From positions 1 to 37,575 of the forward strand of contig NZ_KB898502.1 in NCBI RefSeq assembly GCF_000377645.1: a stretch of DNA of 37,575 bases, written 5' to 3'. This document shows positions 4,388 through 24,826 of this stretch, piece after piece. Made by a program: the position numbers and the translations under genes. A model generated the notes under the pieces. The model saw only the letters and a program-made list of their open reading frames with translations, made no database searches and was not told where the DNA came from. The number at the start of each line of letters is the position of its first letter. Positions within the stretch are counted from its first letter, which is position 1. The DNA is from Thiomonas sp. FB-6. Its GTDB lineage: Bacteria; Pseudomonadota; Gammaproteobacteria; Burkholderiales; Burkholderiaceae_C.

Positions 4388-5958
4388 TCCACGTTCTCTG
4401 CCCGGGCGACCGGGAGGCGGCCGCGTCCGTCGTCGTGGCCGCGCTGCGGCGCAGCTGCGGCCGGGCCCAGGTCCAGCGCATCAGCCCGGGCTTGTGGCAG
4501 GCCCGGCAAGCCCTGGAAGCCGGGGGCGTGGTGGTCCTGATCGACCCGCCGGCGCATTGGACCCCGCTGGTGGCGGCGGCGATCCGCGGCGCACGCCACA
4601 AGGTCGTGCTGTTCGGCAGCCTCCCGGCCGAGCTGGCCGGGCTGCTCGGCGCCCGTGCCTGCGAAGCGCCCGCCGGCTGGGCCGAAGGCGGCGCCAGCGA
4701 GCCCGCCCCCACGGGCGGCATGGCGCGCAGCGCGTTGCAGATCGACTACCGCGAAGCCGCGGGCTGGCGCCGCGTGCCCATCGCATCGCGCCCGCTGCTG
4801 CGCTACGACTTCACCGACGAGTGGAACAACCTGGGCTACGGCGCGGTGCGTTGCGACGGCGGCATCTGGTCCCTGGCGCAGCCGCTGCGCTGGGACCGGG
4901 CCCACGCCATCGCCGCCGTCACGCGCGACGGCCGGGAGTTGTTCGACTACGCGGCCTGCTGGAACGATCTCGTGCTGTGGTTCAACCGCCCGGTGGGCCC
5001 CGTGGACTCCGCGGAGTGGCTGGTCGTGGAGGACTTCCTGGCGCATGCCGGCGCCCCCGCGCTGGCCTGCCAGCCCGTGCTGGGCGAGGTGCCGGCGGGC
5101 TACGGCGCGGCCGCCACCATGCGACTGGACTGTGACGAGGACATCGAATCCGCGCGCGCGCTGTGGCAGACCTACCGCAAGCTGGGCGCGCCCTTCTCGC
5201 TGGCCCTGCACGCGCGCATCCTCCAGGAGGGCATGTCGCCCGCGCTGGCCCGCGACGTGCTGGACGGCGGCGGCAGCCTGCTGTCGCACACGGCCACCCA
5301 CGCGCCCGACTGGGGCGGAAGCTACGAGGCCGCGCTGCGCGAGGGCCTGGTGTCGGCCGAGGTCATCGAACAGGCCACCGGGCATCGCGTGCGCTACGCC
5401 GTGTCGCCCTTCCACCAGACCCCCGACTACGCCCGCGCGGCCCTGGCCGACGCCGGCTACTCCGGATGCATCGGCGGCATCATCCGCAACGATCCGGACT
5501 TCCTGATGGCCCGTTCCGGCCCCGCCCCCGGCTCCGCCCCCGGATTCATCGGCCACAGCCAGCAATGCATGCTGCACGGCGACTGCCTGCTGCGCGACGG
5601 AGACCCCTTGCGCGTGTTCCGCCAGGCCTTCGACATCGCGCGCGCCAGCTTCACCCTGTTCGGCTACCTGGACCACCCCTTCTCGGCACGCTACCAGTAC
5701 GGCTGGCGCGACGAGGCCCAGCGCATCGAGGCCCACGAGAATTTCCTCGGCTGGATGCGCGAGGCCGAGCCGGGGCTGCTGCTGCTGAACGAGCAGGACG
5801 CCATGGACTTCCTCGGCGACCGCGCGCGCGTGGACGTGCGCGATCAGGGCGGCCGCTACGCCCTGGCGCTGCCCGAGGCGCGCCAGAGCGCCTTCGAACT
5901 CGTGGTTCGCCACGCGGGCGCGGAGCACACGCTCGGCGCCGGAGGGCTGGAGCTTTGA
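4384..5958 (+). CDS. Polysaccharide deacetylase family (NodB fold) protein with long N-terminal region
   Basis: Carbohydrate-esterase-4-like protein, 524 residues. The C-terminal half has NodB motif 1 as RLDCDED (about residues 246-252) and motif 2 as SHTATH (about 301-306), which supply the base and metal ligands for removing acyl groups from sugars. The first 240 residues are not recognised. No signal peptide is seen, so it probably acts in the cytoplasm on a nucleotide sugar or lipid-linked intermediate. The start is set by the ATGA overlap with the truncated capK, and the stop overlaps the TTG start of the epimerase. An N-acetyl sugar substrate is suggested by the neighbouring UDP-GlcNAc epimerase, but this is inference. 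Confidence 0.75.
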   Translation: MIHVLCPGDREAAASVVVAALRRSCGRAQVQRISPGLWQARQALEAGGVVVLIDPPAHWTPLVAAAIRGARHKVVLFGSLPAELAGLLGARACEAPAGWAEGGASEPAPTGGMARSALQIDYREAAGWRRVPIASRPLLRYDFTDEWNNLGYGAVRCDGGIWSLAQPLRWDRAHAIAAVTRDGRELFDYAACWNDLVLWFNRPVGPVDSAEWLVVEDFLAHAGAPALACQPVLGEVPAGYGAAATMRLDCDEDIESARALWQTYRKLGAPFSLALHARILQEGMSPALARDVLDGGGSLLSHTATHAPDWGGSYEAALREGLVSAEVIEQATGHRVRYAVSPFHQTPDYARAALADAGYSGCIGGIIRNDPDFLMARSGPAPGSAPGFIGHSQQCMLHGDCLLRDGDPLRVFRQAFDIARASFTLFGYLDHPFSARYQYGWRDEAQRIEAHENFLGWMREAEPGLLLLNEQDAMDFLGDRARVDVRDQGGRYALALPEARQSAFELVVRHAGAEHTLGAGGLEL

Positions 5959-7088
5959 AGCTGCTGGTCGTATTCGGCACCCGCCCCGAGGTCATCAAGC
6001 TCGCGCCGCTGATCGACGAGGCGCGCCGCCATGCCGACGCCATCGAACTGACGGTGTGCTCCACCGGCCAGCACCGCGAGATGCTGGACCAGGCCATGGC
6101 GGTGTTCGGGCTGCGCGCCGACGTCGAGCTGAAGGTCATGCAGGAACGCCAGGGCCTGGCCGGGCTGACGGCCCGGCTGCTCCAGGGCCTGGACGAAGTC
6201 ATGGCCGCGCACCGCCCCGACGTCGTGGTCGTGCAGGGCGACACCACCTCGGCCTTCGCGGCCGGCCTCGCGGCCTTCTACCGCCAGATTCCGGTGGCGC
6301 ACGTCGAAGCGGGCCTGCGCACCGGCGATCTGGCCAGCCCCTTTCCCGAGGAACTCAACCGGGTGCTGCTGGGCAGGCTGGCGCGCTGGCATTTCGCGCC
6401 CACCCCGCGGGCCGCGCAAGCGCTGCGCGACGAAGGCGTGGCGCCCGAGCGCTGCGTGGTCACCGGCAACACCGTGGTCGACGCCATCCGGTTGATCCGC
6501 GACCGCTGGGCCCAGGCCGGCGGCGCCGGCGACGAGCAGCCCTTTGCCGGGCGCGAACTGGTGCTGGTGACCGCGCACCGGCGCGAGAACCAGGGCCAGG
6601 CCCTGCGCAACATCTGCGCCGCCGTGCGCCAGTTGTGCCTGCAATACCCCGATCTCGGCTTCGTGTTCCCGGTGCACCTGAGCCCCCAGGTGCGCGACAT
6701 CGTGTTCGCCGAACTCGGCCGGGACATCCCCAACCTGCGGCTGTGCGACCCGGTGGACTTCGAGACCAACCTGCGTCTGCAAAGCCGCTGCCGGCTCATC
6801 GTCACCGATTCCGGGGGCATCCAGGAGGAAGCCCCCTCCTTCGGGGTACCCGTGGTGGTCACGCGCGAACACACCGAGCGCAGCGAGGGCATCGAGGCAG
6901 GCTTCGCCACGCTGGCCGGCACCTCGACCGAGGCCATCGTGCGCGCGGCGCGCACATGGCTGGACCAGGGTGACGCTCGCCGCGCTCTGGCCAGCCGGCC
7001 CAACCCCTACGGCGACGGCCACGCCGCCCGCCGCATGGTCGAACTCCTGCTGGGCGATCCCGAGCTGCGGCGCGACCATGCAGCCTGA
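5955..7088 (+). CDS. wecB: UDP-N-acetylglucosamine 2-epimerase (non-hydrolysing)
   Basis: Interconverts UDP-GlcNAc and UDP-ManNAc in the cytoplasm. The family signatures are all visible: FGTRPEVIKLAPL at the N-terminus, STGQHREML, VQGDTTSAFA, HVEAGLRTGD, PFPEELNR, TAHRRENQG, and TDSGGIQEEAP with the catalytic glutamates. 377 residues, full length. The start is a TTG at 5955 that overlaps the deacetylase stop by four bases; no ATG lies close enough to keep the FGTRP motif. No UDP-ManNAc dehydrogenase (wecC) is present, so the product is probably ManNAc itself. The 3' end overlaps the next gene by 11 bases. Confidence 0.93.
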   Translation: MKLLVVFGTRPEVIKLAPLIDEARRHADAIELTVCSTGQHREMLDQAMAVFGLRADVELKVMQERQGLAGLTARLLQGLDEVMAAHRPDVVVVQGDTTSAFAAGLAAFYRQIPVAHVEAGLRTGDLASPFPEELNRVLLGRLARWHFAPTPRAAQALRDEGVAPERCVVTGNTVVDAIRLIRDRWAQAGGAGDEQPFAGRELVLVTAHRRENQGQALRNICAAVRQLCLQYPDLGFVFPVHLSPQVRDIVFAELGRDIPNLRLCDPVDFETNLRLQSRCRLIVTDSGGIQEEAPSFGVPVVVTREHTERSEGIEAGFATLAGTSTEAIVRAARTWLDQGDARRALASRPNPYGDGHAARRMVELLLGDPELRRDHAA

Positions 7089-8310
7089 GCGGACCGAGGA
7101 GACGGTGGACTTCGCCGCCGTGCCGCGCGACTGCGTGCTGTTCTCCACGGCCGACTGGCGTGCCCCTTACTGGACCAACAAGCAGCACACGGCGCGCCAG
7201 CTCGCCGCCACCGGCCGGCGCGTGCTGTACGTGGAAAGCATCGGACTGCGCACGCCCGGCGCGAACGCGCGAGACTTCAAACGCCTGTGGCTGCGTCTGC
7301 GGCGCGGGCTGGCACCGGTGCGCGAGGTCGAGCCGGGCGTGTGGCTGCTGTCGCCGTTGGCCGTGCCCTTCAAGCAGCACTGGGCCGCGGTGCGCCTGCT
7401 CAACCAGGGCCTGCTGGCCCTGCGCATCCGCTGGGCCATGCTGCGCATCGGCATGCGCCGCCCGCTGGTGTGGACCTACCACCCCTTCATGCTTCAGGCG
7501 CTGGACCTGCTGCCTCACCGCGGGCTGGTCTACCACTGCGTGGACGACCTCGCCGCCGTTCCCGGCATTCCGGCCGAACCCTTCCGCGCCGAGGAACGCA
7601 AGCTGCTGGCCCGCTGCGATGCCGTGTTCGTCACCAGCGCCGCCCTGCTGGACCTGTGCAAGCCGCACAACCCGCACACCTGGTATTTCCCCAACGTGGT
7701 GGACGCCGAGCACTTCGGCAAGGCGTTGCAGCCGGGCCCCATTCCCGAGGACCTGGCCCGCATCCCCGAGCCACGCCTGGCCTACATCGGCGCGCTGTCC
7801 GACTACAAGGTGGACTTCGCGCTACTGCATGCCTGCGCGTCCGCCCACCCCGAATGGCAATGGGTGCTGATCGGCGAGGAACGCGAAGGCCAGCACGACC
7901 CCTCGCTGGCGGCCATGCTCGCACTGCCCAACGTGCACTTGCTCGGGCATCGCGACTACGCGCGTCTTCCCGACTATCTGCGGGGCATCTCCGTGGGCCT
8001 GCTGCCCACGCTCGTGAACGAGTACACGCGCTCGATGTTCCCGATGAAGTACTTCGAATACATCGCGGCCGGGCGCCGCGTAGTTTCCACGCCGCTAGAG
8101 TTCACGCGCCATGAGGGTACGGCGCTGGAGATCGGCGGAGAAGACGAGGCCTTTGCCGGCGCCATTGCCCGAAGCCTCACGCGCCCACGCCTCAGCGCGA
8201 CCGAGGCCGACGCAGCCGTCGGCGACAACACCTGGGCGGTGCGGCTCGACAAGATGATCGCTCTGGTCGCCACGGCGCTGCGTGATGCAGACTCGGGAAC
8301 CGCAGCGTAA
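7078..8310 (+). CDS. Glycosyltransferase, GT4/TuaH-like
   Basis: GT-B-fold glycosyltransferase of 410 residues resembling the TuaH group of polysaccharide loci: FSTADWRAPYWTNKQH and RVLYVESIGLRTP near the N-terminus, VYHCVDDL in the middle, a linker HTWYFPNVVDAEHF, and a nucleotide-sugar-binding half with MFPMKYFEYIAAGRRVV. Start ATG 7078 lies inside the end of wecB (11-base overlap); the ribosome binding site is poor, so coupling to wecB is likely. Last gene of the plus-strand block; it ends 38 bases from the converging rmd-like gene, with no hairpin terminator between. Donor and acceptor cannot be told from sequence. Confidence 0.8.
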   Translation: MQPERTEETVDFAAVPRDCVLFSTADWRAPYWTNKQHTARQLAATGRRVLYVESIGLRTPGANARDFKRLWLRLRRGLAPVREVEPGVWLLSPLAVPFKQHWAAVRLLNQGLLALRIRWAMLRIGMRRPLVWTYHPFMLQALDLLPHRGLVYHCVDDLAAVPGIPAEPFRAEERKLLARCDAVFVTSAALLDLCKPHNPHTWYFPNVVDAEHFGKALQPGPIPEDLARIPEPRLAYIGALSDYKVDFALLHACASAHPEWQWVLIGEEREGQHDPSLAAMLALPNVHLLGHRDYARLPDYLRGISVGLLPTLVNEYTRSMFPMKYFEYIAAGRRVVSTPLEFTRHEGTALEIGGEDEAFAGAIARSLTRPRLSATEADAAVGDNTWAVRLDKMIALVATALRDADSGTAA

Positions 8311-8348
8311 TCCGCAGCGCGCGTACCAAACATCGGCGCCCGCCTTCC

Positions 8349-9194
8349 CTACCGCGAGTACATCCAGCGCAAGGTCTCGTCCAGCGGCGGAGTGTGCCAG
8401 TCGCCGATCAGCCTGCGCAAACGCGATGGGTCGCCGCACAGCCTGCGCACCTCGCTTTGCCTGACGTACTCGGCGTTCACTGCAACCTCAATGTCGTAAC
8501 CCGCGATCCCTTCCATCAGGGCCAGGATCTCACGAAGCGAATAAGTCCTGCCAGAGCACACGTTCACAGTCTGCCCCGCCGGGCACTCCTCCAACAGGCG
8601 TCGATACGCGCGCACGACCGACCGCACGTCCGACAAGTCGCGCCAGACATCGAGGTTGCCCAGTTCGATCACTGCGGCCCGTGCCCGGAAATGGGCCACG
8701 ATCTTCGGCACGAGAAACGCCTCGCTCTGACCTACGCCCGTGTAGTTGAACGGGCGCGCGATCACCAGCGGAAGCCGGTCATGCCACAAGCGCGCCATGC
8801 GTTCCATGGCCATCTTACTCACGGCATAATCATTTGCCGGATGTTCGGGCGACTCCTCCGAAAGCACCCCCTCCAAGCTGTTGCCGTAAACATTCGAACT
8901 GCTCGCCAGCAGCACGCACGACGGACGTCTGGCGCAGCCAGCGAGCGAGGACAGCAGATTGCGTGTGCCCAGCAGATTGACCTTGTAGAAATCGTTCTGG
9001 TCACCGTGCCCGACGAAAGCGATGCCAGCTAGATGTACGACCCATTCTGGCTGAATCCGCCCGATCTCGGCCGCGACCGCCGAGGCGTCCGTCAAGTCCG
9101 CCTCAAGCCCCGCCACTTCGTGCCCGGCGCGCCCCAATTCTTCGCGCAGATACTTGCCGGTGAAGCCGCCAAGCCCGGTAACCAGTGTCCTCAT
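8349..9194 (-). CDS. rmd: GDP-6-deoxy-4-ketohexose reductase (RMD-like SDR)
   Basis: Extended SDR that would reduce the 4-keto group made by Gmd. It carries TGLGGFTGKYL at the N-terminus, HLAGIAFVGHG, ASSSNVYG, and the catalytic YxxxK in YAVSKMAM. 281 residues, normal for RMD. Start ATG at 9194 is two bases after the gmd stop; reading further upstream in this frame only shadows gmd. Directly follows gmd and the C-methyltransferase, so its substrate may be a 3-C-methylated GDP-4-keto-6-deoxyhexose rather than the plain one. Stereochemistry of the product cannot be predicted from the sequence. Fcl-type epimerase/reductase for GDP-L-fucose is less likely. Confidence 0.8.
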   Translation of the reverse strand: MRTLVTGLGGFTGKYLREELGRAGHEVAGLEADLTDASAVAAEIGRIQPEWVVHLAGIAFVGHGDQNDFYKVNLLGTRNLLSSLAGCARRPSCVLLASSSNVYGNSLEGVLSEESPEHPANDYAVSKMAMERMARLWHDRLPLVIARPFNYTGVGQSEAFLVPKIVAHFRARAAVIELGNLDVWRDLSDVRSVVRAYRRLLEECPAGQTVNVCSGRTYSLREILALMEGIAGYDIEVAVNAEYVRQSEVRRLCGDPSRLRRLIGDWHTPPLDETLRWMYSR

Positions 9195-10263: not shown

Positions 10264-11502
10264 TCAAACAATTTCAATTTCCGGGAACGGAAAGATAAAC
10301 TTACCGCCGCTCGCAAGGTATTCTTTTTCTCGCCGCAGGATTCCGTCCTTGAAGTGCCACGGAAGCACCAGGAAATAATCTGGTTTCATAGCCTTCGCAT
10401 CTGCCTCCGAAACAATCGGAATATGGCTTCCAGGCGTCATGCGGCCATACTTCTCGGGATTCACCTCTGCGATCGCAGGGATATCCTCCGCCGTCAACCC
10501 GCAGAATTGAAGCACGACGTTTCCTTTGGTCGACGCACCATAGCCAAGGACCTTCTTTCCGTCGGCCGTCAGCATGCGAATCAATCGGGTCAGATCCTCG
10601 CGATGGCGAAACACCCGCTCCTCGAAATCGCGATAGGGTCGCGGCGTGTTCAGCCCCATTCGATCCTCTTGGCCCAGCAGCCAATCGATCACAGCTTGGT
10701 TCGTTTTGATGGAGGTGTTAGAGCGCTTGGCGGCGGTGACGGCGAAGCTGCCGCCGTTCACAGCATTCATCACGACATCCACGAGGCGCAATTCAGCACT
10801 CTCAAGAATAGTCTTAACAACGCCAAGCGAGTAATACTCAAGATGCTCATGACAGATTGTGTCATAGGAGTTGAGCCGCAGCATCGACGGCATATAGCTC
10901 TGCTCGAAATGCCACACACCATCATCCGCCAAAATTGCCTCGATTTCCCGCGCGAACTGGATCGGCGCATCGAGATCATAGAACATGGCAATAGACGTCA
11001 CGATTTTTGCCGGCCGCTTTTCCACCGACCGGTAGGCATCCGCCGAAAAGAAATCTGGCACCAATGCAATGTCCGTCGGATAATATTCCCGGAATTTTCG
11101 CCCTGTGGGGTCGATACCGATCCGCCGAACACCCTTCGCCTGGTACGCCTTGAGAGTCGTACAATCGTTGCTGCCAATATCTAGAACCACGTCCCCGCCA
11201 TTCAGCGGATTGAGTCTTTCCAGGTAGGTCACCTTGTCCGAAAGGTGGTTCACCATCGACTGGTTCAACCCCGACCGATAGCCGTAGTTGTCACCGTACA
11301 TCTCCGAGGGCTCGTAGGAGTGCGCCAGCTGCAGCAGTCCGCTGTCCGGGCACCAAACCAGTTCCAATGGACCCCGCGTGACATTTTCCTCGGCAGACCT
11401 AGGGAAAACACCCGTCAACGCTTGCTGCCCCAGGTTCAACACCGATACCAGGTGCTCGCTGCCTCCGACTCGGCATTGAGAAATCTTGCGATAAGAAGCC
11501 AT
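10264..11502 (-). CDS. Sugar C-methyltransferase (TylC3-like, SAM-dependent)
   Basis: 412-residue protein with the three-part build of NDP-ketosugar C-methyltransferases: an N-terminal metal-binding module, a Rossmann SAM domain with VLDIGSNDCTTL at 107-118, and a C-terminal domain with GYGASTKGNVVLQF. Such enzymes add a methyl branch next to a keto group, usually at C-3. The N-terminal module normally binds zinc through two CxxC pairs; here these read C10-R-V-G13 and C51-P-D-S54, so one cysteine of each pair is lost. The start has AGGAG upstream, 17 bases after the previous gene. With gmd and rmd next to it, a GDP-linked 3-C-methyl-6-deoxyhexose is the likely product. This part is among the least GC-rich of the window. 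Confidence 0.85.
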   Translation of the reverse strand: MASYRKISQCRVGGSEHLVSVLNLGQQALTGVFPRSAEENVTRGPLELVWCPDSGLLQLAHSYEPSEMYGDNYGYRSGLNQSMVNHLSDKVTYLERLNPLNGGDVVLDIGSNDCTTLKAYQAKGVRRIGIDPTGRKFREYYPTDIALVPDFFSADAYRSVEKRPAKIVTSIAMFYDLDAPIQFAREIEAILADDGVWHFEQSYMPSMLRLNSYDTICHEHLEYYSLGVVKTILESAELRLVDVVMNAVNGGSFAVTAAKRSNTSIKTNQAVIDWLLGQEDRMGLNTPRPYRDFEERVFRHREDLTRLIRMLTADGKKVLGYGASTKGNVVLQFCGLTAEDIPAIAEVNPEKYGRMTPGSHIPIVSEADAKAMKPDYFLVLPWHFKDGILRREKEYLASGGKFIFPFPEIEIV

Positions 11503-11519: not shown

Positions 11520-12206
11520 TTACTGAATCCTGTAAACGATCTGACGCTCGGCGATCGCTCGCACCGGACCGAAATCGGGAGCCGCCATGACGAAACCCTG
11601 ACCACCTGCTTTGAGCAGGAGAATCCGTTCGAATACCCTGCTCCGAAAATCCTCGTGGCACGAGAACAATTGCGCGTCGAGAAGGGTCAACCGCGCGCTG
11701 GAGAACAAGCCCAGTGTGATCGCGCAGCGCACCCTTTCATGAAACGACAGTTTGCCCATGCTCAAGTTTGCCTGTCCTAGCAGGTCCGCGAAGAGGAGAA
11801 TCCTTTCTAGACCCACGTCGGTCGGGGGCCGGCAACCGGCATCGAGGCATCGAATCGAACGCAAGAATTGTATCAGCGTCCTACGCCCCGTCATCGATTC
11901 CCAGCGTATCGCAATAGAGGAAATCGACGGGGTCACCTGCACCGACTCGACCGCGGCGTCGCGCGCACCCGCGACGGCCCCGAGAAATCGCTTATGCACG
12001 AATCCCTCGGAGCCGCAAATCGCATAGCAATTTCCGGCGGGCATCGAGAAGCTTCGTAACTCGGCGCGAATGCCTTGGCGTTCTGGAAGGAATCCTTCCT
12101 GATTTCCGAGTTTCGCGAGCCCCGGCGCCAGCCAGCGCCCGAGCGCCGTTGCCTGGTATTCCAGGGGCAACGACAGGGCTCTTATCGACAACAGCGCATC
12201 ACTCAT
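11520..12206 (-). CDS. Degenerate ABC-ATPase-like (Wzt/KpsT-fold) protein without catalytic motifs
   Basis: 228 residues. It aligns, without gaps through the key segments, to the Wzt encoded at 23266-24015, yet every ATPase motif is changed. Walker A GHNGAGKST is GSEGFVHKR (65-73), with His71 where Lys should be. The signature SSGM is SFHE (154-157). Walker B keeps Asp177 but has Ala178 for the catalytic Glu. The D-loop GD is CH. The H-loop His is Pro210. Flanking residues such as the segment before Walker A, RVR after the signature, and the C-terminal helix are kept. The frame is open, and the ATG overlaps the stop of the beta-helix gene as ATGA, so it is translated by coupling. Function unknown: a structural partner of Wzt, an adaptor, or an early pseudogene. 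Confidence 0.7.
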   Translation of the reverse strand: MSDALLSIRALSLPLEYQATALGRWLAPGLAKLGNQEGFLPERQGIRAELRSFSMPAGNCYAICGSEGFVHKRFLGAVAGARDAAVESVQVTPSISSIAIRWESMTGRRTLIQFLRSIRCLDAGCRPPTDVGLERILLFADLLGQANLSMGKLSFHERVRCAITLGLFSSARLTLLDAQLFSCHEDFRSRVFERILLLKAGGQGFVMAAPDFGPVRAIAERQIVYRIQ

Positions 12207-13369
12207 TCCGCTACTGGCTCCAGATTATTGGCAACGAGAGCCGTCCGCGGCATCGTCGACAAGGTCCCCTCGCGATTCAATCCAAAAACGTTACCGGTAA
12301 TAATCGACCTACCTGTGTGCTCGATGCCGGCGATCGCATAGGCTTGGCTGTTCCCGAAACCGGCCGCGCAGCCGATGTTACCGTTTCGCACGGCCAACAC
12401 CTCGCACGCGCCGTGCACGTCGATCCCGGACGACACGCCGTCGCGCCCATTGCCGGCGATGCTGCAATTGTCGGCCATCACCGATGCGGCCTTGGCGATC
12501 GCAAGCCCGCTTCCGCCATTTCCATAAAGTCGCGTACCGAGCAGCTTGATGTCGTCGACCGCTCCCTGCGAGGCATCCAGCAGGACGCCATGGCCCTCGT
12601 TGCTGGCGCACCAATCGCCGGTGGACTGCACACGGCGCACGGTAGCGCCGGGGCCCGCATTGATCAGAAGCCCGTGGTGGGCGCAGGTATCGATGGCGTT
12701 GTCCGACAGAAATCCATGCTCCAGGGTCCTTCCGGTGGTCGCCGTGAGGTGCAAGCCCACGCCACAATGAAAGATGCCGCATTGCTCGACCCAGAATCCC
12801 TGAGAATTCGCGATCCTCAGACCGACCTCGCACGGCGCGCTCTGCTTGCGGCACTGCACGAACACCCTTGAGAAGTACTGGTCGTTATGCACTCCCTCGC
12901 CATGCACCAGGATCCCAACCCCGCCCATGGCCCGCGGATCGCAGATCTCGCAATCGGTCACATAGACGAAGCTGGAATCGGCAATTTCGATCCCGCAGTT
13001 CAGGTTTGCGAGCAGGCAGTTGCGGATGTGCACATCGTACGACGAATAGATCCGAACGCCGGCACCGTGCTCCAGAGTTCTGCGCGTATTGATCGAAAGA
13101 TCGCATACCTGCACCCGCGAGACCTGGTTGTGCGGACTACCGATGATCAAGCCATGGCCGTCGTCGGAAGCGATCATCAAGCGGGTGATCTCACGCCCGA
13201 TGCCGCGCAGCATCACCTGTCCACGCTCGACGCGCAATGGCTGGCGCAGAAGGATCTCCCCAGCCGGCAGCAAGATCTCCCCGCCTGCGGGCGGCAGGAG
13301 CGCCAGCGCCCTGTTGATGGGCGCCGAGCAGTCCGTATAGCCGTCAGCAATCAACCCAATTGGCTGCAT
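12203..13369 (-). CDS. Right-handed beta-helix repeat protein (pectate-lyase-3-like N-terminus)
   Basis: 388 residues. The N-terminus IADGYTDCSAPINRAL followed by GGEILLPAGEILLR matches the opening of pectate-lyase-3/tailspike-type beta-helices. The rest is a run of short strands with N/C/G-rich turns (CSIAGNGRDG, NSQGFWVEQC, SSFVYVTDC), typical of parallel beta-helix coils. No signal peptide or membrane segment is seen, so the protein is expected to be cytoplasmic unless exported by another route. Start ATG 13369 is chosen because upstream residues only shadow the capK 3' region and its 110-base spacer. The stop overlaps the next gene (ATGA). Possible roles are a glycan-modifying epimerase or lyase, or an acyl/sulfo-group handling enzyme; the sequence does not decide. 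Confidence 0.7.
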   Translation of the reverse strand: MQPIGLIADGYTDCSAPINRALALLPPAGGEILLPAGEILLRQPLRVERGQVMLRGIGREITRLMIASDDGHGLIIGSPHNQVSRVQVCDLSINTRRTLEHGAGVRIYSSYDVHIRNCLLANLNCGIEIADSSFVYVTDCEICDPRAMGGVGILVHGEGVHNDQYFSRVFVQCRKQSAPCEVGLRIANSQGFWVEQCGIFHCGVGLHLTATTGRTLEHGFLSDNAIDTCAHHGLLINAGPGATVRRVQSTGDWCASNEGHGVLLDASQGAVDDIKLLGTRLYGNGGSGLAIAKAASVMADNCSIAGNGRDGVSSGIDVHGACEVLAVRNGNIGCAAGFGNSQAYAIAGIEHTGRSIITGNVFGLNREGTLSTMPRTALVANNLEPVAE

Positions 13370-13479: not shown

Positions 13480-15297
13480 TCAGGCTTGCAGTCGAAGGGC
13501 ATGGACCTTTAGCCCGAGTTCGCGAGCGTCGTTCGGCACCCGGTATACGTGGCTGACCTCGAATTCCAGAATCCTCGGCGCGCCCTCGGTCACTTCGTCC
13601 AGTTCCAGTTCCATGACCTGTGGCCCGCCATGGACCTGCAGGCAACTCAGCAATTGCCCCCTCTCGAACGCACGGAGATCGGGGAGCGCGTCCGCGGTCG
13701 CCGGATAGTCGAACTCGACGAGCACGCGCTTGGCCGGCCACTTCGGGTTGATGGCGATCGTCCCGCGCCGAGCCATCCAGCGAAATGAGACCTCACCATA
13801 GGTTTCCAGCGCATTCCATCCGGTCAGGTAGAGAAGCGGCGACGATTTCGCCTCGCCGACGAATTGCGGGACAAGTTCTGTGGGGGTCACGGGCGGCGCC
13901 TCGGCTTCCCCGGTCAACTCGACTAGGTAGCGGAATTTCTGCTGCTGTCCAACCCGCACGAAGTCGCTTCGTCGGACGAAACGCAAATCGAACGCCTGGC
14001 GGGGAAACAACTCTTCCAAGCGACTTCGCATGGCTGCTGCGCCCGCGTCGTCGAGCAGGCACAGACGCAGTTGCAGCGCCTGGTCCGCGGCCCTCACGAA
14101 CTGGAAATCGTCGACGTTGCCAAGACGCGTGAACAGGTCCTGAAACCAATGCGTGGGATAGCTCTTTGCGTCGATGACGATCTTGTCGTGCACGCGCCCG
14201 GCGACATCCTCCAGGTAGAGCCCTTCGGTTCCGCACACCACGTTGCCTTCATCGCCCGTCGCATAGCGGATCAACGGCGACGAGAAGTTAGTCAGATCCG
14301 TCACCACGAGCGCACCACGTTGGTTCGAGTTCAGCCCGACCGACTCGACCCAAACATACGGATCCATGACCTGCATGTAGCGACACGCCGCAGCACCCAT
14401 AGGGGTCAACGGACCATCGTGTTGCACCGCGTCCGTCCCACCTGAGCCTTCAACGAACCGATCATGCGCCATGATCCCGAATTCCGCGTTCCCGTAGCGG
14501 TTCGCGGCCCGGCAACCGAACACACGTTCTATGGCATTGCGCTGCTGCTCCGCCAGCGCCTCGCCCGTGGAGACAAATACCTTAAAGACGCCATGGCTCC
14601 TCCCCTGTCGTCTCTCCACATGCCGTGCCAGCGCATACATCGTCGACGGGTGGCCCTGAATGAGGTAGGCGCCGGCGTCGCGCACGCTTGCCCACAGCGA
14701 ATCGAGGCCCTGCTCGGTCCAGGCCTCGACCTCTACGCTCAATCGATTCGTTGCCTGCCTGCGCCACCACTCCTGCCTCTTGGCAATGGCCGGGGTCTCG
14801 CCGGGAAAAGCCGACGAGATATGCATCTGTAAGTCTCCGGGACCGAAGCCGACCCATCGCTGGCTGATCCGTGTCACCGCCGCGGACAGATCCTTGGCAG
14901 CGGGGGTGTAATAGATCGGCAGCGCACTCCCAGTCGACCCGTTGGTGCGGTGCACCGAGACCGTGAGGAACTGTCGCGCGCGAGGACTCAGGAGCCGGTC
15001 CCCGGCTTCGCGAATGTCTTCCTTAGTCAAGATGGGAAGCTGCTCGAAATACCGAATGTCCTTCAAAACCTTCAGGGGATCGAAGCCGACCTTCCGGAAA
15101 AGTTCCCCGTAGAACGGTATTTCGTGCATAGCGTTCTGCAGGACTTCCACCAAGCGCACCCGGTTGCGTCGCTTGCGCTCGTCCCACGGCACATCGAATT
15201 CGCGCAGGAGCAGCTCAACGCGACGGTTCACGTCACGCCCGGAAAGCCTTTCCGCGACGGGAAACAGGACTCGCGAACGGAGATAAGGAATCAACAT
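13480..15297 (-). CDS. CapK/PaaK-like adenylate-forming enzyme with extra C-terminal domain
   Basis: 605 residues. The first 460 form a complete CapK-type adenylating domain: ATP loop RTNGSTGSALP (117-127), RYGNAEFG (267-274), YATGDEG with Asp349, GRVHDKIV, and the C-terminal lysine region FVRVGQQQKFRY. Residues 470-605 are an added beta-rich domain (SFRWMARRGTIAI, VLVEFDYPA, ELELDEV) that I do not recognise; it resembles carbohydrate-binding or modifying modules in pattern only. CapK homologues in O-antigen and capsule loci are proposed to activate an acid for acyl or amide decoration. Start ATG 15297 shares one base with the stop of the triple glycosyltransferase (TGATG) and has AAAGGAG upstream. 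It is the full-length paralogue of the truncated gene at 3638-4387. Confidence 0.85.
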   Translation of the reverse strand: MLIPYLRSRVLFPVAERLSGRDVNRRVELLLREFDVPWDERKRRNRVRLVEVLQNAMHEIPFYGELFRKVGFDPLKVLKDIRYFEQLPILTKEDIREAGDRLLSPRARQFLTVSVHRTNGSTGSALPIYYTPAAKDLSAAVTRISQRWVGFGPGDLQMHISSAFPGETPAIAKRQEWWRRQATNRLSVEVEAWTEQGLDSLWASVRDAGAYLIQGHPSTMYALARHVERRQGRSHGVFKVFVSTGEALAEQQRNAIERVFGCRAANRYGNAEFGIMAHDRFVEGSGGTDAVQHDGPLTPMGAAACRYMQVMDPYVWVESVGLNSNQRGALVVTDLTNFSSPLIRYATGDEGNVVCGTEGLYLEDVAGRVHDKIVIDAKSYPTHWFQDLFTRLGNVDDFQFVRAADQALQLRLCLLDDAGAAAMRSRLEELFPRQAFDLRFVRRSDFVRVGQQQKFRYLVELTGEAEAPPVTPTELVPQFVGEAKSSPLLYLTGWNALETYGEVSFRWMARRGTIAINPKWPAKRVLVEFDYPATADALPDLRAFERGQLLSCLQVHGGPQVMELELDEVTEGAPRILEFEVSHVYRVPNDARELGLKVHALRLQA

Positions 15298-18200
15298 CAA
15301 CCAATCTCCTTTCCGAAATTCAGCAGGTCGTAGCCGCTGAACAGCTTCCACGGCGATTCTTGGTCTCCCACGACTCGCCCCTGCACGAAGGCGACCTCAT
15401 AGACCTTACGCAACGCCTCGACCTGCGCCTGGAATTCGGGGATATGCTTACAGCGCTCGATCAGACGCCCCATCGAGAACATCTCCGGCAGCGCGGCGTC
15501 CTGCCCGTAATAGACGGCTCTCGCCCAGTTGACGACGTCCGCACAGTGGTTCCTGCGGTACGGCGCCAGCATCGCCTTGTTGACGCCCTGCCTTTCGGCC
15601 AGATCGAATAGATCGGGCATGCGCTCCATGTGCCAGATCAGGACCCATCTGCGCCACGAAACGTTCATGTTAACGATTACGTAGGGATCGGCAATCCAGT
15701 AACCTGGTCGATTCACCATATGCTCAAGCACATACACTGAGGTCGGAATACAGGTCATCAAGTCCGAGAATGGCGAACCCGACGTATCCTGCGTGTACGC
15801 GGCGATCGCATGATCGCGCCGAAACACGCAAGCATAGATCGCGGTAAACAGGTTCTCGTTATAACCTGCGAAGTACCGAACCTCTTCGGCGAAATGACTG
15901 ATCGATCCGGATGCGATGGGGGTCGCCTTGGCCACGATCTCCTCGACATCCTCGAGCTCTTCTGGTCTATCGAAATGCGTATAGGCATAGTTCAGATAGA
16001 TGATCTCGCTGCGCGGGAAGTCCCGGATGACGTCCAGGATGCGCGCAACCGCCCCGCCCTGGATCAGATCGTCATCCCCCAGGATCCAGACGTAGTCCCC
16101 GCGCGCCAACTTGCTGGTTACAGCCAGGTTGCCGAGCATGCCGACGTTGGCTTCATTGCGGTGATAGCGCAGGGTCGCGCATAGCGCGAACTCCTGCATC
16201 ACCGCAGGGGTATGATCGCTTGAGGCATTGTCGACGACGAGTATCTCCACGCCACTAGCACACAACTCGACGCTCCGGATGATCTGTCGCAGCGAGTGTC
16301 TTAGCCACTCCGCCCGATTGTAGGTAGACACGCAGACCGAAAGCCGCAGCCCCGCGCCAGGCCTCAACGCGCCGGCGCGCCAGACAGGGAAATTCCTCTC
16401 CAGGATCGCCGGGAACGTGGGCTGCTCGGCGCGCAGCAACCAAGTGAGACCTCGTGCATACTCATCCCACGATCTCAGCGGGCGCTGCACCGCCTGGGCC
16501 GATAGTTCGGTGAGGCTGCCGGGATCCCCGGCCAATCTGGCGATCGCCGCACCGAATTCCTCCCAATTATTGGGGTCCACGGTGACGCAGCCACCTCCCC
16601 GCGCCACCTCTGCAATCGCGCCTGTGTTGCTGCATATGCAGGGACGCCCGTGCCAGAGGCTCTCGAGGACCGGCAGACCGAAGCCTTCGAGAAGGGACGG
16701 GAACAGCGTGAAGTCACACGCCCTATACAAATCGGCCAGCGCCTCGTCCGAGGGTAGCTCGACAATGCGGAAACCTTCGTCTCCGGCTATTTCCTGAAGC
16801 ACGTCCTCCGCGTAGACCGAGTGGTCCTTCGTCGAGCCCGCGAAAACAAGTTCCACGCGGATATTACGCAGCCTGAGAATCTGCCGGGCGGCTCGCACGG
16901 CGAAGATTGCCGCCAGATGATTCTTGCGGGGCTCGAAAGTACCTACCATCAAAATCGAAACCGCCTTGGCGTCGACATTAGTGGTCCTAACTTCCCGATT
17001 TCTCGCGAACTCGCGCATCTCGCCGGGCAACGGCAGCGGGTGGATCCTCTGCTTCACCGTAGTCAGACGATCCAAACGATTACGGCAATAATTCCATAAA
17101 TCGCGGCCCACCGTTTCTGAGATTGGCAGCAGCATATCTGCCTCTGTAATCATCTTGAAAAACAGATGGTAGCCTTCCTGAGCCTCCGGCGAATACAAAT
17201 CGGTAAGCGTCACCGGAATCAAGTCGTAAAACACAATGGCAACGCGCATGCCGCGCGCCCTAGCCGCTTGAATGACCTGCTGCGCGTTGGGATTCGGCAG
17301 CACCAGCTCCGGAACGATCAGCCAAGCGTCGGTGAGGTCCTGCGCCAGCGAAAACGGCGTGAAACGCGCGGGACCGTTCCACAGCGACAAGTGCTGTTGC
17401 TCGGACTCATCGATCGGGCGGAAGTCTGATCGCTCGACATCCCAGGCCACGAAAGACAGGTCGACTCCGATGCGCTCGAGGGTGCCGGCCAACTGACGCA
17501 CCACGCGCTGCACACCGCTGTTACCGTGGTAGGAAACCGTCGAATGCACCCACATCATCGCGCGCGTGATTCCGGGCGCGCCATGCAGCACCCCCAACAG
17601 ATCGCGGGCGTAATCCTGCCAGCGCAGCAAGGCACGCGAAGCCGCCTGCTGCCGCAACTGGCGGCGCAGCGGAGCGTCCAGCATCATGCGCTTGAAGCCT
17701 TCGTAAAGGGTCCGGGGATCTCGCGTGTCAACGCACCACGCGCCGCCGCCGGCCGCAATCTCCGCCATCGATCCGTGCTGCGCGCACAGGCACGGAACCC
17801 CAAGCCAGAGACTCTCGGCGATCGGCAGTCCATAGCCTTCTTCCACCGACGGGAATACCGAGAAGGCCGCCTCGCGATAAAGCTCAACCAGTCGATCGTC
17901 CGGTACGAAATGCATGACCTCGACGTCCGGGATGCCCGTCGAAAGCTGCTGCAACGACTCCTGCACTAACGGATGAACGTTGCCGACAATTTTCAGCTCA
18001 CAAGCGATGTCCGGATATTCGCGCTTGAAGCGGCCGAAGGCCTCAATCAAGGCCAGTTGGTTCTTGCGCGGCTCTACGGTCCCCACGCACAGCACCATCA
18101 GCGGCTCGCCGCTCGTTGGCTCCGCGAATGCCTGGCGCTCCACCTTGGCCAGTTCATGGGGCAGCAGGACATGCCGGATCGACGGGAACATATAATCCGC

Positions 18201-18749
18201 CTGCTTGCCGGTGTTACGCAGGAAATGACGAATATCGTCCGCCACGCTCGCGCTGATGGCGACAATGACGTCCGACAGTGCCAGGTGCTGCAAGTATCGG
18301 GAGTGCGTTTCGCGGATCGCCGCATACTCGTCCCGCTTCAGCGGAATGGCGTCGTAAGCCAGCGCCGCAGTTTTCAGCCGAAAGCGTCGCGCGTAAAGCA
18401 GCACGTCCTCCGTCACGGGCTGCTCGTGAAACGTCAGGTGTGTCACCTCGGGAATGACCAGCCACGCGCCCTCGAGATCGCGCTTGTCCCTGCTATCCAG
18501 GTGCAACGGCTCGACGCCGGCCGCTCCCTCGTCACAAACTGGGCCGTCCCACTGCTCCAGATGCCGCAATTGCTGCACGTCGAGGCGCTTCAATGCGCGC
18601 GAATCGACACACCAGCGCACGAAGACGACTTCGTCGACCACCTCCTGAAACGCGCGTCCTAGGCCCCGCACCACGCGCTGGACACCGGAATTCGCCTGGG
18701 ACTGCGCCGTATGTTCGGCGTAAATGAATATTTTGTTATGCATGCTCAT
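15297..18749 (-). CDS. Three-domain glycosyltransferase, GT4-GT4-GT2
   Basis: 1150 residues with three catalytic modules. GT4-A spans about 1-390 and GT4-B about 396-790; both begin with the same NSGVQRVVR segment (Asn20 and Asn410), so they are a tandem duplication. Each has the donor-site E-X7-E motif: EEGYGLPIAES near 300 and LEGFGLPVLES near 685, preceded by VEPRKN / FEPRKN loops. The GT2 module starts near 800 (LSVCVSTYNRAEWL), with VVDNASSD and a DDD metal site (ILGDDD) near 890. Such fusions in O-antigen loci act as processive polymerases making a multi-sugar repeat. Start ATG 18749 is used; ATG 18743 (MHNKIF) is close. No membrane segment, so probably peripheral on the inner face. Confidence 0.88.
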   Translation of the reverse strand: MSMHNKIFIYAEHTAQSQANSGVQRVVRGLGRAFQEVVDEVVFVRWCVDSRALKRLDVQQLRHLEQWDGPVCDEGAAGVEPLHLDSRDKRDLEGAWLVIPEVTHLTFHEQPVTEDVLLYARRFRLKTAALAYDAIPLKRDEYAAIRETHSRYLQHLALSDVIVAISASVADDIRHFLRNTGKQADYMFPSIRHVLLPHELAKVERQAFAEPTSGEPLMVLCVGTVEPRKNQLALIEAFGRFKREYPDIACELKIVGNVHPLVQESLQQLSTGIPDVEVMHFVPDDRLVELYREAAFSVFPSVEEGYGLPIAESLWLGVPCLCAQHGSMAEIAAGGGAWCVDTRDPRTLYEGFKRMMLDAPLRRQLRQQAASRALLRWQDYARDLLGVLHGAPGITRAMMWVHSTVSYHGNSGVQRVVRQLAGTLERIGVDLSFVAWDVERSDFRPIDESEQQHLSLWNGPARFTPFSLAQDLTDAWLIVPELVLPNPNAQQVIQAARARGMRVAIVFYDLIPVTLTDLYSPEAQEGYHLFFKMITEADMLLPISETVGRDLWNYCRNRLDRLTTVKQRIHPLPLPGEMREFARNREVRTTNVDAKAVSILMVGTFEPRKNHLAAIFAVRAARQILRLRNIRVELVFAGSTKDHSVYAEDVLQEIAGDEGFRIVELPSDEALADLYRACDFTLFPSLLEGFGLPVLESLWHGRPCICSNTGAIAEVARGGGCVTVDPNNWEEFGAAIARLAGDPGSLTELSAQAVQRPLRSWDEYARGLTWLLRAEQPTFPAILERNFPVWRAGALRPGAGLRLSVCVSTYNRAEWLRHSLRQIIRSVELCASGVEILVVDNASSDHTPAVMQEFALCATLRYHRNEANVGMLGNLAVTSKLARGDYVWILGDDDLIQGGAVARILDVIRDFPRSEIIYLNYAYTHFDRPEELEDVEEIVAKATPIASGSISHFAEEVRYFAGYNENLFTAIYACVFRRDHAIAAYTQDTSGSPFSDLMTCIPTSVYVLEHMVNRPGYWIADPYVIVNMNVSWRRWVLIWHMERMPDLFDLAERQGVNKAMLAPYRRNHCADVVNWARAVYYGQDAALPEMFSMGRLIERCKHIPEFQAQVEALRKVYEVAFVQGRVVGDQESPWKLFSGYDLLNFGKEIG

Positions 18750-18759
18750 CCTGCGAGAC

Positions 18760-19773
18760 TCATGGGCGTCCGGCGAAATTCGCGGGTTGCATTTCGACGT
18801 ACAAGTGCAGCAGGTCCCGTGTGACCGTCGACCATGAGTAATCATCGACGATGCGCCGCTGCAGGCGTCCCGTCGCCTCCGAGGCCAGCGCCTGCCTCAG
18901 CGCGAAAATCACCGAGTCTTGATCGCACGGGTCGACGTAGAAAACCTCATCACCGAAATATTCCCGCGCACTCCCTTCAGCCGTTATCACGATCCGCGCA
19001 CCGGCGGCGGCCGCCTCGAGCGCGGCGATGCCGGGGGTCTCCAACGTGCTGGGAAGAACAAAGGCCTCGCATGCCCCATACGCGGCACGAAGCCGGAAAT
19101 CGCTCTGCGGCAGGGCACCGAGGTGCCTGAAATAGCCGCCAACTCCCGCCCTTACGCATTCCTCAAAATACGCCGGGTCGCGAACGCGCCCGATCGAGAC
19201 AAGCGGCAAGCCGACGACCCGTGCCGCACGAATCGCCGCCAACTGGTTCTTTCTGGGCTCGATATTCGCGACATTTAATAAGAAGCGACCGTCAATACCC
19301 GACCAGCGGCGAAAGATGGACGATTCTAGCCCCTCAGCGAACCATGGATCGACCCCATTGCGCAAGACACGCGCCTTTTCCCTGGGGAGCCCGGAATGCA
19401 CGCAAAGATTCTCGATCTCGGAAAATGAATTGCAGATGATCACGTCCGCCTGCTCGTAGTAGATACCGATCTCTCGCTCGTTGACGTGCGCCCGATTCGT
19501 ATCGTTGATCCACAGATTCGGGCTCATCAGAACCTTCATTCCAAGCTTCCGGACGTAATCCACGAACGGCACGCCGCCGGAAACCAGATGAAAGTGGTGA
19601 AACAACGCAGCCTCGTCCAGACGTGGGCGCCAAATGTCGTGCAGTATGACATCGCAACCATGCCCCTGGAGATATTCGTAATACTTAAGCAATTGCACTT
19701 CGCCACCGCCCGGCAAGTGCATGGCGTAGGGGTGGATGTTGTAGACAACCTTGGGGATGCTTGGTGATGTCAT
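18760..19773 (-). CDS. Glycosyltransferase family 4
   Basis: 337-residue GT-B enzyme. The N-terminal half has YNIHPYAMHLPGGGEVQLLKYYE and NLWINDTNRAHVN. The C-terminal half has the donor-side loop NIEPRKNQL, then SDFRLRAAYGACEAFVLPS and TLETPGIAALEAAAAG with the E-X7-E spacing. ATG 19773 is taken as start; a GTG three bases upstream is possible. Ten bases separate its stop from the triple glycosyltransferase start. Sugar specificity is unknown; it is likely to add one residue of the repeat or the adaptor region. Confidence 0.85.
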   Translation of the reverse strand: MTSPSIPKVVYNIHPYAMHLPGGGEVQLLKYYEYLQGHGCDVILHDIWRPRLDEAALFHHFHLVSGGVPFVDYVRKLGMKVLMSPNLWINDTNRAHVNEREIGIYYEQADVIICNSFSEIENLCVHSGLPREKARVLRNGVDPWFAEGLESSIFRRWSGIDGRFLLNVANIEPRKNQLAAIRAARVVGLPLVSIGRVRDPAYFEECVRAGVGGYFRHLGALPQSDFRLRAAYGACEAFVLPSTLETPGIAALEAAAAGARIVITAEGSAREYFGDEVFYVDPCDQDSVIFALRQALASEATGRLQRRIVDDYSWSTVTRDLLHLYVEMQPANFAGRP

Positions 19774-23265: not shown

Positions 23266-24015
23266 TCAGCGAGCGGCGTCGTAGGCATCGACCACCTCGT
23301 TCACCTCGCCGCACATGCGCACCTTGCCGCGCTCCATCCACAGCACCTTGGTGCAGGTCTTGCGGATGGTCTCGCTGGAGTGGATGGCCAGCACCACGAT
23401 CTCCGATCGGTCGTGCAATTCCTTCAGGCGCCGCTCGGCCTTCTCCTGGAAACTGGCATCCCCCACACCCAGCACTTCGTCGAGTAGCAGGATGTCGGCG
23501 TCCACCGCAGTGGACACGGCGAAGGCCAGGCGCACGCGCATGCCGCTGGAGTAGGTGCGCAGCGGCAGGTCGAGGTAGTCGCCCAGTTCGGTGAAGTCGG
23601 CGATCTCGTCGGTCTTGCGACGGATCTCGGCGTCGCTCATGCCCAGCAACAGACCGCGCAAGCGGATGTTCTGGCGCCCCGTCGACTGCTCGTCCATGCC
23701 CAGGGAGATGTCCAGCAGAGGCACGGCCTTGCCCTCTACTTTGATGCTTCCGGCTGTGGGGGGATAGATCCCCGCCATCACACGCAGCAGGGTGCTCTTG
23801 CCGGCGCCGTTGTGGCCGATCAGGCCCAGGCGGTCGCCGGCGCGCAGTTCGATGCTGAGGTCGTCGATGGCACGAACGATCACGACGCCGGTGTTGTCCT
23901 CGGCGATGCGATTGCGGCGTCCCATGCGCAATACGCGCTTCTTGAGCGACTGCGAGGACACGTCGAAGATCGGCAGGTCCAGGTGGATGTTCTGCAGGCT
24001 GATGCTGGAAGACAT
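23266..24015 (-). CDS. wzt: ABC transporter ATP-binding protein for O-antigen/polysaccharide export
   Basis: 249-residue ATPase that drives flipping of the finished lipid-linked glycan through Wzm. All motifs are intact: Walker A GHNGAGKST (67-75), signature SSGM (156-159), Walker B ILLLDE (175-180, Glu180), D-loop, and H-loop His212. It ends shortly after the nucleotide-binding domain, so the C-terminal carbohydrate-binding domain found in chain-terminator-recognising Wzt proteins is absent. The start follows an AAGG site about ten bases upstream. The degenerate paralogue at 11520-12206 aligns to it. Confidence 0.93.
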   Translation of the reverse strand: MSSSISLQNIHLDLPIFDVSSQSLKKRVLRMGRRNRIAEDNTGVVIVRAIDDLSIELRAGDRLGLIGHNGAGKSTLLRVMAGIYPPTAGSIKVEGKAVPLLDISLGMDEQSTGRQNIRLRGLLLGMSDAEIRRKTDEIADFTELGDYLDLPLRTYSSGMRVRLAFAVSTAVDADILLLDEVLGVGDASFQEKAERRLKELHDRSEIVVLAIHSSETIRKTCTKVLWMERGKVRMCGEVNEVVDAYDAAR

Positions 24016-24043
24016 GGATCGGGCCTTGAGGTCGGCAGTCTGT

Positions 24044-24826
24044 TCAGACCCAGTAGGGGATGCGGCGGTGGAAACGGCCGGTGATGGCCAGCGCCAGTGT
24101 CCAGCCGAACACGGCCATGCCGGCGCCCACCCCCCAGGTCAAGGCGTCGGGGATCTGACCCAACAGCGGTGCGCGCACCAGTTCGATCAGGTAGGCCAGC
24201 GGGTTGTAGACCACGACCCAGTGGTGCTTGCCCGCCAGCATGTCCCCGCTGAACAGGATGGGCGTGACGTAGAAGGTCACCTGCAGCAAGGCCGCCACGA
24301 TCTGCGGAAAATCCCGGAACCTCGCGGCGACCACACCCGAGAATGCCGCGATCCACACGGCGTTGAGCATGAACAGCGCGAAGCCCGGCACGAACAGCAG
24401 CAGCGCGGCCCAACTGTGCACACCGAACACCGCCATCACGATGATCACGATCAGAAAATTGTGCGCGAAGATCACCGTGTTGCGCCACGCGGCCTGCAGC
24501 ACGTAGATCAGCCGGGGCGTGTTGACCTGGCGGATGTAGTTGGCGCTGACGATGTAGGAATTGCACCCCTCGAGGACCACGCTCGAGAACAGGGTCCAGA
24601 ACACCAGTCCGTCGGCCACCATCGGAAGGTATTCGCCCAGCGGCCGGCCGAGCAGCGTGCCGTAGACCAGCCCCAAGGTGCCCACCAGCACACCCATGCT
24701 GATGGTCAGCCAGAAGGGGCCCAGCTTGGAGCGCGCGTAGCGCTGGCGGATTTCCAGCCAGCCCAGCAGGGTCCACAGGCGCCACGAGCGCAGGCTCGCG
24801 AACAGGTCGTTGATCGCAATTCCCAT
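24044..24826 (-). CDS. wzm: ABC transporter permease for polysaccharide export
   Basis: 260-residue ABC-2-type inner-membrane protein with about six hydrophobic segments. YARSKLGPFWLTISMG is the characteristic N-terminal interface of the Wzm/KpsM family, and NPLAYLIELVRAPLLG lies before the last membrane pair. Start ATG 24826 is chosen over a TTG just before it. Twenty-eight bases separate it from wzt and 37 from the initiating transferase upstream, consistent with one transcript. Confidence 0.94.
   Translation of the reverse strand: MGIAINDLFASLRSWRLWTLLGWLEIRQRYARSKLGPFWLTISMGVLVGTLGLVYGTLLGRPLGEYLPMVADGLVFWTLFSSVVLEGCNSYIVSANYIRQVNTPRLIYVLQAAWRNTVIFAHNFLIVIIVMAVFGVHSWAALLLFVPGFALFMLNAVWIAAFSGVVAARFRDFPQIVAALLQVTFYVTPILFSGDMLAGKHHWVVVYNPLAYLIELVRAPLLGQIPDALTWGVGAGMAVFGWTLALAITGRFHRRIPYWV

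Follow-up and report, generated by a model that had tools for sequence, protein, structure and literature searches.

The described proteins closest to the subject of this analysis are the Wzt nucleotide-binding domains (NBDs) of O-antigen exporters of the ATP-binding cassette (ABC) type, such as A. aeolicus WzmWzt (6m96, 7k2t, 8dku). The protein in question, here named orf228, is encoded on the minus strand at positions 11520..12206 of a 37,575-nucleotide stretch of the Thiomonas sp. FB-6 genome (contig NZ_KB898502.1, from its first position; hereafter the window), and it resembles Wzt in its best profile match, ABC fold, length, extension between strands 1 and 2, and type of locus. It differs from Wzt in that the residues of the ATP site are replaced by others, themselves conserved, that its gene does not lie beside that of Wzm in the window, and that it is coupled to a gene for a beta-helix protein. 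The next-best profile matches, together with a high structural match to the predicted model of orf228, lead to TarH/TagH of teichoic acid exporters. Unlike orf228, TarH/TagH are active ATPases, paired with TarG/TagG. TarGH is described in a section of PMC7078476. With regard to degenerate NBDs, excerpts of PMC11466899 depict the second NBD of the importers RbsA/NupO as devoid of the Walker A Lys and altered in its signature, but it is fused with the first in one chain, whereas orf228 stands alone and has lost both Walker A and signature. PhnK/PhnL on C-P lyase, to judge from the titles of entries 7z15-7z18, are proteins of ABC fold that sit on an enzyme complex instead of a permease; the same titles have them bind nucleotide, which orf228 is not expected to do, and the likeness is one of fold. 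Lost-motif NBDs fused to another NBD are already known, while among the literature entries listed none reports an inactive Wzt paralogue that stands alone.

We regard orf228 as a pseudo-Wzt, that is, a stand-alone Wzt-like NBD protein of 228 residues predicted to be ATP-dead, on the grounds of its similarity to Wzt, a profile comparison with the PDB, an AlphaFold2 (AF2) model and its lost motifs. Its frame starts with ATG, contains no internal stop, and overlaps by 4 nt (ATGA) the stop of the upstream beta-helix open reading frame (ORF), in agreement with the open frame and coupling reported in an earlier, sequence-only reading of this DNA. The surrounding polysaccharide locus comprises Wzm, an intact Wzt, glycosyltransferases, a mannose-1-phosphate guanylyltransferase and a C-methyltransferase. 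Taken alone, orf228 matches no Pfam or PADLOC family at E up to 1, the Pfam model PF00005 (ABC_tran, gathering cut-off 25 bits) included, and none in NCBIfam at 0.1; compared singly with the PDB, it finds Wzt as sole match, at E 1.8.

An alignment of the CapK-like ligase from the same neighbourhood, searched against a genome collection covering 84,980 species, yielded 114 relatives, and the best 80 of these 114, representing 79 distinct loci, were examined. Two of the 79 loci possess orf228 homologues (228 or 218 residues), namely, that of a Legionellales metagenome-assembled genome (MAG; CANJVW010000001.1, locus L045; 27% identity, E 1.5e-31) and that of Pseudomonas sp. EpS/L25 (NZ_LNUP01000011.1, locus L046; 34%, E 4.8e-40). 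PF00005 gives these homologues 20.4 and 20.1 bits. The three genomes share a cassette of the same order: glycosyltransferase, multi-domain glycosyltransferase, long CapK-like ligase, beta-helix protein, orf228. Only in L045 and L046 among the 79 loci is the long ligase matched across its whole length (57% identity); the upstream cassette glycosyltransferases are common to both at 55-67%, and the beta-helix orthologue, 55% identical in L045 and 60% in L046, directly precedes the orf228 homologue. The other 77 loci hold no match to the beta-helix protein of the window or to orf228 (ORFs of at least 100 residues, E below 0.05), and a Wzt match at E 1e-30 is present in 52 of the 79, two of these matches being truncated where the stretch ends. 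The orf228 cassette is thus rare, with three genomes found. In these genomes, -4, 0 and +1 nt separate the beta-helix gene from orf228, compared with 110, 82 and 3 nt between ligase and beta-helix genes, so that the tightest gene coupling of orf228 is with the beta-helix gene.

The four substitutions noted previously in orf228 are correct as written: the Walker A Lys is replaced by His71, the signature Gly by His156, the Walker B Glu by Ala178 and the H-loop His by Pro210. That every catalytic motif is replaced holds for orf228 with the exception of the Walker B Asp177 and the signature Ser154, which are kept, but not for the Pseudomonas copy, whose Walker B is intact. For comparison, we used 26 Wzts, i.e., that of the window plus 25 of the 52 matched above, near-duplicates, cut and fused sequences being among the 27 left out; all of the ATP-motif residues scored are retained in 26/26, including the Walker A pattern GxxGxGK[ST]. 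This pattern gives way to GSEGFVHK, GRDSFVGL and GNDHFVQD in the three family members, and the signature Y-S-S/T-G-M to LSFHE, LSWVE and LSFIE, with G and M gone from each. The three members have in common the loss of the Walker A Lys, Ser/Thr and third Gly, of the signature Gly and Met, and of the H-loop His, which is Pro in all of them. The Walker B Glu and the D-loop Asp are lost in two of the three; as the Walker B Asp-Glu reads DA in orf228, ES in L045 and DE in L046 (kept in 1/3), loss of the Glu is, from the sequences, not a family trait. No homologue with intact ATPase motifs was found at the same place: both syntenic homologues lack the Walker A Lys, signature Gly and H-loop His, and the motif loss is therefore conserved and tied to the beta-helix and CapK genes. 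It is near certain from these sequences that orf228 is a pseudo-ATPase, a reading also well supported by the Wzt-first profile described below and by the retained frame.

Some replacement residues are themselves identical in the three members, namely, Val70, Glu157, Pro210 and cysteines 60, 64 and 183, the last three positions being occupied by Cys 1, 0 and 0 times in the 26 Wzts. Among the 37 family-invariant positions, 11 fall on the 33 ATP-motif positions and 26 on the 195 others (Fisher p 0.007); restricted to the 18 invariants absent from all 26 Wzts, the counts become 8/33 and 10/195 (p 0.0013), both tests being drawn from three sequences. Because family-specific invariants cluster in the ATP motifs, the former ATP site looks remodelled and then kept, and not simply drifted, although the statistic is a modest one with three sequences. 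Four of the ten family-specific invariants outside the motifs (34, 35, 38 and 40) lie at the end of the region that corresponds to the Wzt gate helix. There, between strands 1 and 2, orf228 carries an extension of the same place and length as the gate helix, with a conserved end block LGN[QR][DE]G; the pocket tyrosine is not kept, by eye.

Synonymous sites between the homologues are saturated: at fourfold sites, observed identity between the three genomes is 0.22-0.29 versus 0.23-0.27 expected by chance (31-36 sites per pair). Amino-acid identity among the members is nevertheless 26-35%, and internal stops are absent from 3/3. In a neutral decay simulation of Wzt, limited to substitutions, open frames were left in 0/300 runs at 20% identity, 7/300 at 35% and 11/300 at 50%. 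Judged by these comparisons, orf228 is demonstrably under purifying selection as a protein and is not a young pseudogene, because residues and open frame have been kept in all three genomes while synonymous sites became saturated. It diverges faster than its neighbours (beta-helix protein 55-60%, ligase 54-58%, large glycosyltransferase 61-67%).

The kinship of orf228 to Wzt was evaluated at the level of single sequences, profiles and models. When orf228 is set against the Wzt of the window without gaps, offset +2 gives 34/160 identities and a BLOSUM62 score of +36, versus at most 19 identities and negative scores for all of 14 other offsets. The gapless alignment to the Wzt of the same locus, as claimed earlier, thus stands as a register; the best aligner path, however, contains two compensating 4-residue gaps. 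The gapped local score of 62 was attained by none of 1000 shuffles (mean 32.3, s.d. 5.0, maximum 50). With the Wzts of L039, L040 (N-terminally cut) and L041, which come from the related loci first found to carry Wzm-Wzt and CapK, 0, 2 and 52 of 1000 shuffles, respectively, score as high; single-sequence evidence for kinship to more distant Wzts is therefore weak, given the L040 and L041 values. A profile of the orf228 family, built from its three members with no Wzt included, places four Wzt chains at the top of 177,635 PDB sequences (5.2e-11 to 3e-10), followed by TarH/TagH; the best 60 of its 195 matches at E up to 10 are all ABC proteins by name. NCBIfam ABC models match two of the three members. 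Against 3210 ORFs from 147 loci, 16 of the 20 best non-family matches are Wzt-type (SSGM), the first seven without exception. The AF2 model of orf228 has ABC topology (predicted local distance difference test, pLDDT, 80.0; predicted template modelling score 0.77); its input alignment contained Wzts. In this model, helix 21-31 lies between strands 6-15 and 46-55, with pLDDT of 54-67 per block under the same alignment; a prediction from the three family members alone reached a pLDDT of 34.9 and was not used. Three observations weigh against Wzt as the nearest of the ABC families: the Wzts from the members' own genomes rank low with the family profile, Wzt and other ABC matches among the ORFs of the 147 loci show no overall difference (p 0.21), and the tree was unable to place the orf228 clade. 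On the whole, the profile comparisons establish orf228 as a homologue of ABC NBDs, probably nearest to the Wzt/TagH class. The family, as delineated by these sequences, consists of small, conserved, stand-alone ABC NBD proteins kept within one polysaccharide cassette and deprived of ATP-site residues; orf228 would be a separately encoded pseudoenzyme derived from an ABC ATPase, with new conserved residues in the former ATP site.

In ABC-dependent pathways, it is a long-standing problem how the export of a polysaccharide is linked to the synthesis and completion of its chain, and a conserved NBD presumably unable to use ATP and tied to modifying enzymes offers a handle on it. An ABC site is complete only when one chain supplies Walker A and its partner the signature. 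Since orf228 has lost both, a pair formed by orf228 and Wzt would have no complete ATP site, and orf228 is hence probably neither an engine nor half of one. Among the three roles proposed in the sequence-only reading, this argument, drawn from the ABC sandwich mechanism, goes against pairing with Wzt as an engine. Replacement of the missing Wzt C-terminal domain is not favoured either, as orf228 has no extra domain, and the C-terminal domain would need no replacement because Wzts of 244-308 residues, too short for it by length only, occur in loci without an orf228 match (0/77 other loci). Tethering of the synthesis enzymes to the exporter appears to be the best fit of the three, and the link of orf228 to the beta-helix and CapK genes, which are in the same cassette in three genomes, is well supported. 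The reading that we tentatively favour, with somewhat less than even confidence, is that orf228 acts as a Wzt-like, ATP-dead adaptor, translated jointly with the beta-helix protein, that docks modification enzymes on Wzm-Wzt. This role is inferred from the fact that Wzt, besides using ATP, offers a surface fitting Wzm and a gate helix, and that an extension matching this helix in place and length persists in orf228. In Wzt, the gate helix lies at the interface with Wzm, which it contacts, according to a portion of PMC6379404.

In such a scheme, orf228 would be synthesised alongside the beta-helix protein and bind it, and its preserved NBD scaffold, including the strand 1-2 extension, would seat it on Wzm or Wzt, so that the CapK/beta-helix modification step would be placed at the export gate. 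ATP binding would have been exchanged for a conserved surface (F69, V70, L153, E157, F181, C183, A209 and P210, with C64 beside), a likely docking site, and an ordinary Wzt homodimer would still power export. The fuller version, in which the dead Wzt-like protein is a third exporter subunit that docks a cytosolic beta-helix/CapK complex on Wzm-Wzt and uses the former ATP site to bind protein, is doubtful on balance. If true, chain modification and export would be physically coupled via an NBD whose ATP site has turned into a protein-binding site.

A somewhat unlikely alternative places orf228 outside transport, as a subunit of a beta-helix/CapK complex comparable to PhnK/PhnL on C-P lyase and never touching Wzm or Wzt. 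The conserved coupling to the beta-helix gene would suit it, as would the distance at which the separate intact Wzt, which both the window and the L046 genome contain, lies from orf228 (about 11 kb and about 7 kb, respectively), and C-P lyase PhnK structures are among the fold matches, alongside many other ABC NBDs; the best profile matches are nonetheless exporter NBDs, and Wzm is present in all three cassette genomes. We consider distinctly unlikely a regulatory half, in which orf228 replaces one Wzt in a Wzm2-Wzt-orf228 exporter that has no complete ATP site and, until the chain is complete, acts as a brake or as a parked state for substrate loading. The Wzt-type profile and register accord with it, and degenerate second NBDs have precedents such as RbsA/NupO in the excerpts of PMC11466899, but Walker A and signature are lost from the same chain in 3/3, which leaves no complete composite site, and usual dimer-face residues (signature, D-loop) are among those changed. 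It is improbable that the remodelled site serves as a ligand or redox/metal sensor, binding another molecule or a metal through cysteines 60, 64 and 183 and signalling to the exporter: these cysteines are invariant in 3/3 and nearly absent from the 26 Wzts, but only three sequences are compared and no metal motif was recognised. A NosDFY-type module, with the beta-helix and ABC proteins as a NosD-NosF-like pair, is highly improbable; the beta-helix protein does match Pfam NosD at 8.3e-10 and has the ABC-like gene next to it, but Wzt/TagH come first with the profile, NosF is missing from the best 60 of the 195 PDB matches, the neighbouring ORFs scanned, a part of the total, include nothing NosY-like, and the beta-helix protein has no signal peptide by eye in 3/3. 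Finally, a recent pseudogene, i.e., a decaying Wzt duplicate as the lost catalytic residues and fast divergence might suggest, is refuted in the sense tested and has hardly any probability left, given purifying selection, a frame without stops in three distant genomes despite synonymous saturation, no open frame in 300 neutral decays at 20% identity, and replacement residues that are in part conserved.

Further relatives were sought in genome sets that are samples, a source genome being counted whenever it is a member of the group. With orf228 alone as query, no relative was found in genome contigs, viral contigs or plasmids, nor in any of 27 congeners. The same query gave seven weak non-self matches in 100 genomes (own included) and four in 399 members of the order (own included; at most seven best candidates per genome scored), one being common to both sets. 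At the resulting ten distinct non-self loci, nine of the best ORFs keep Walker A and B; the signature pattern was not found in L004, L042 is an intact Wzt, and the match in L006 lies within an ordinary two-NBD ORF. The L046 homologue had no match in E. coli genomes. The family profile reached family-level scores only in the source genomes among 398 genomes of the L046 family (at most seven best candidates each), 94 genomes around that of L045 and 13 of the L046 genus, and matched nothing in viral contigs. The beta-helix protein was detected only in its own genome among 369 genomes of the class (at most five best candidates scored) and not in viral contigs. L039, L040 and L041 hold no match to the beta-helix protein or orf228, the best orf228 match there (E 0.25) being to a Wzt; the 232-residue ORF that separates Wzt from CapK in L041 was weighed as a candidate, but by eye its sequence does not seem ABC-like.

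Among the neighbours of orf228, the gene at 12203..13369 (minus) codes for a right-handed beta-helix protein of 388 residues, pectate-lyase/NosD-like (Pfam Beta_helix 1.9e-13, obtained with the longer ORF), whose start was placed at the Met of ORF residue 125 by alignment with the L046 and L045 orthologues. It is most likely cytosolic, as the lack of a visible signal peptide indicates. Many Cys, His, Asn and Asp are invariant at the 55-60% conservation of these proteins, which gives it the look of a cytosolic enzyme in a polysaccharide locus. The CapK/PaaK-like adenylate-forming ligase (13480..15297, minus; about 605 residues) extends at its C terminus past the region that most other CapK-like relatives match, and its NCBIfam matches, to the DVU_1553-type AMP-dependent CoA ligase and to PaaK, are below cut-off. 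The extension (~13480-13860, minus) displays, by eye, a conserved SFRWM motif, and in L041 a methyltransferase-like ORF (7241-8653) seems to begin with a comparable stretch that contains FRW. Upstream in the cassette lie the multi-domain glycosyltransferase, GT4-GT4-GT2 by Pfam (15297..18749, minus; orthologues 67% and 61%; start by eye), and a GT4 glycosyltransferase (18760..19773, minus; Pfam; orthologues 65% and 55%). The C-methyltransferase after orf228 (10264..11502, minus; Pfam Methyltransf_13/14) has an orthologue, 84% identical, directly after the orf228 homologue of L046; in the window it is followed by GMD-like and SDR-like genes, named by eye.

The window's Wzt (23266..24015, minus; 249 residues; NF050108 2.6e-91, 305 bits for a model cut-off of 400) is intact and putatively the active NBD, with all ATP motifs present, and its length leaves no room for a carbohydrate-binding domain at the C terminus. 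The Wzm permease (24044..24826, minus) is 39-41% identical to the genes in Wzm position of L039, L040 and L041, and was aligned with four Wzm proteins. In the L045 MAG, a search of the readable sequence at E 1e-20 detected no Wzt, a weak negative since the assembly may be partial and the locus is partly N; there, a PfkB-type kinase gene, and not Wzt, directly follows Wzm (14878-16718). A second CapK-like gene of the window, at 3683-4384 (plus), lacks in frame the equivalent of residues about 186-392 of the L039 CapK, which may be real or an assembly effect, and precedes a deacetylase, a UDP-GlcNAc 2-epimerase-like gene and a glycosyltransferase (4384-8268). L039 and L040 display the run Wzm-Wzt-CapK-deacetylase-epimerase, followed by a glycosyltransferase in L039, and in L041 an additional ORF separates Wzt from CapK. 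The CapK-deacetylase-epimerase module of the window (3683-8268, plus) is parted from Wzm-Wzt (23266-24826, minus) by the orf228 cassette.
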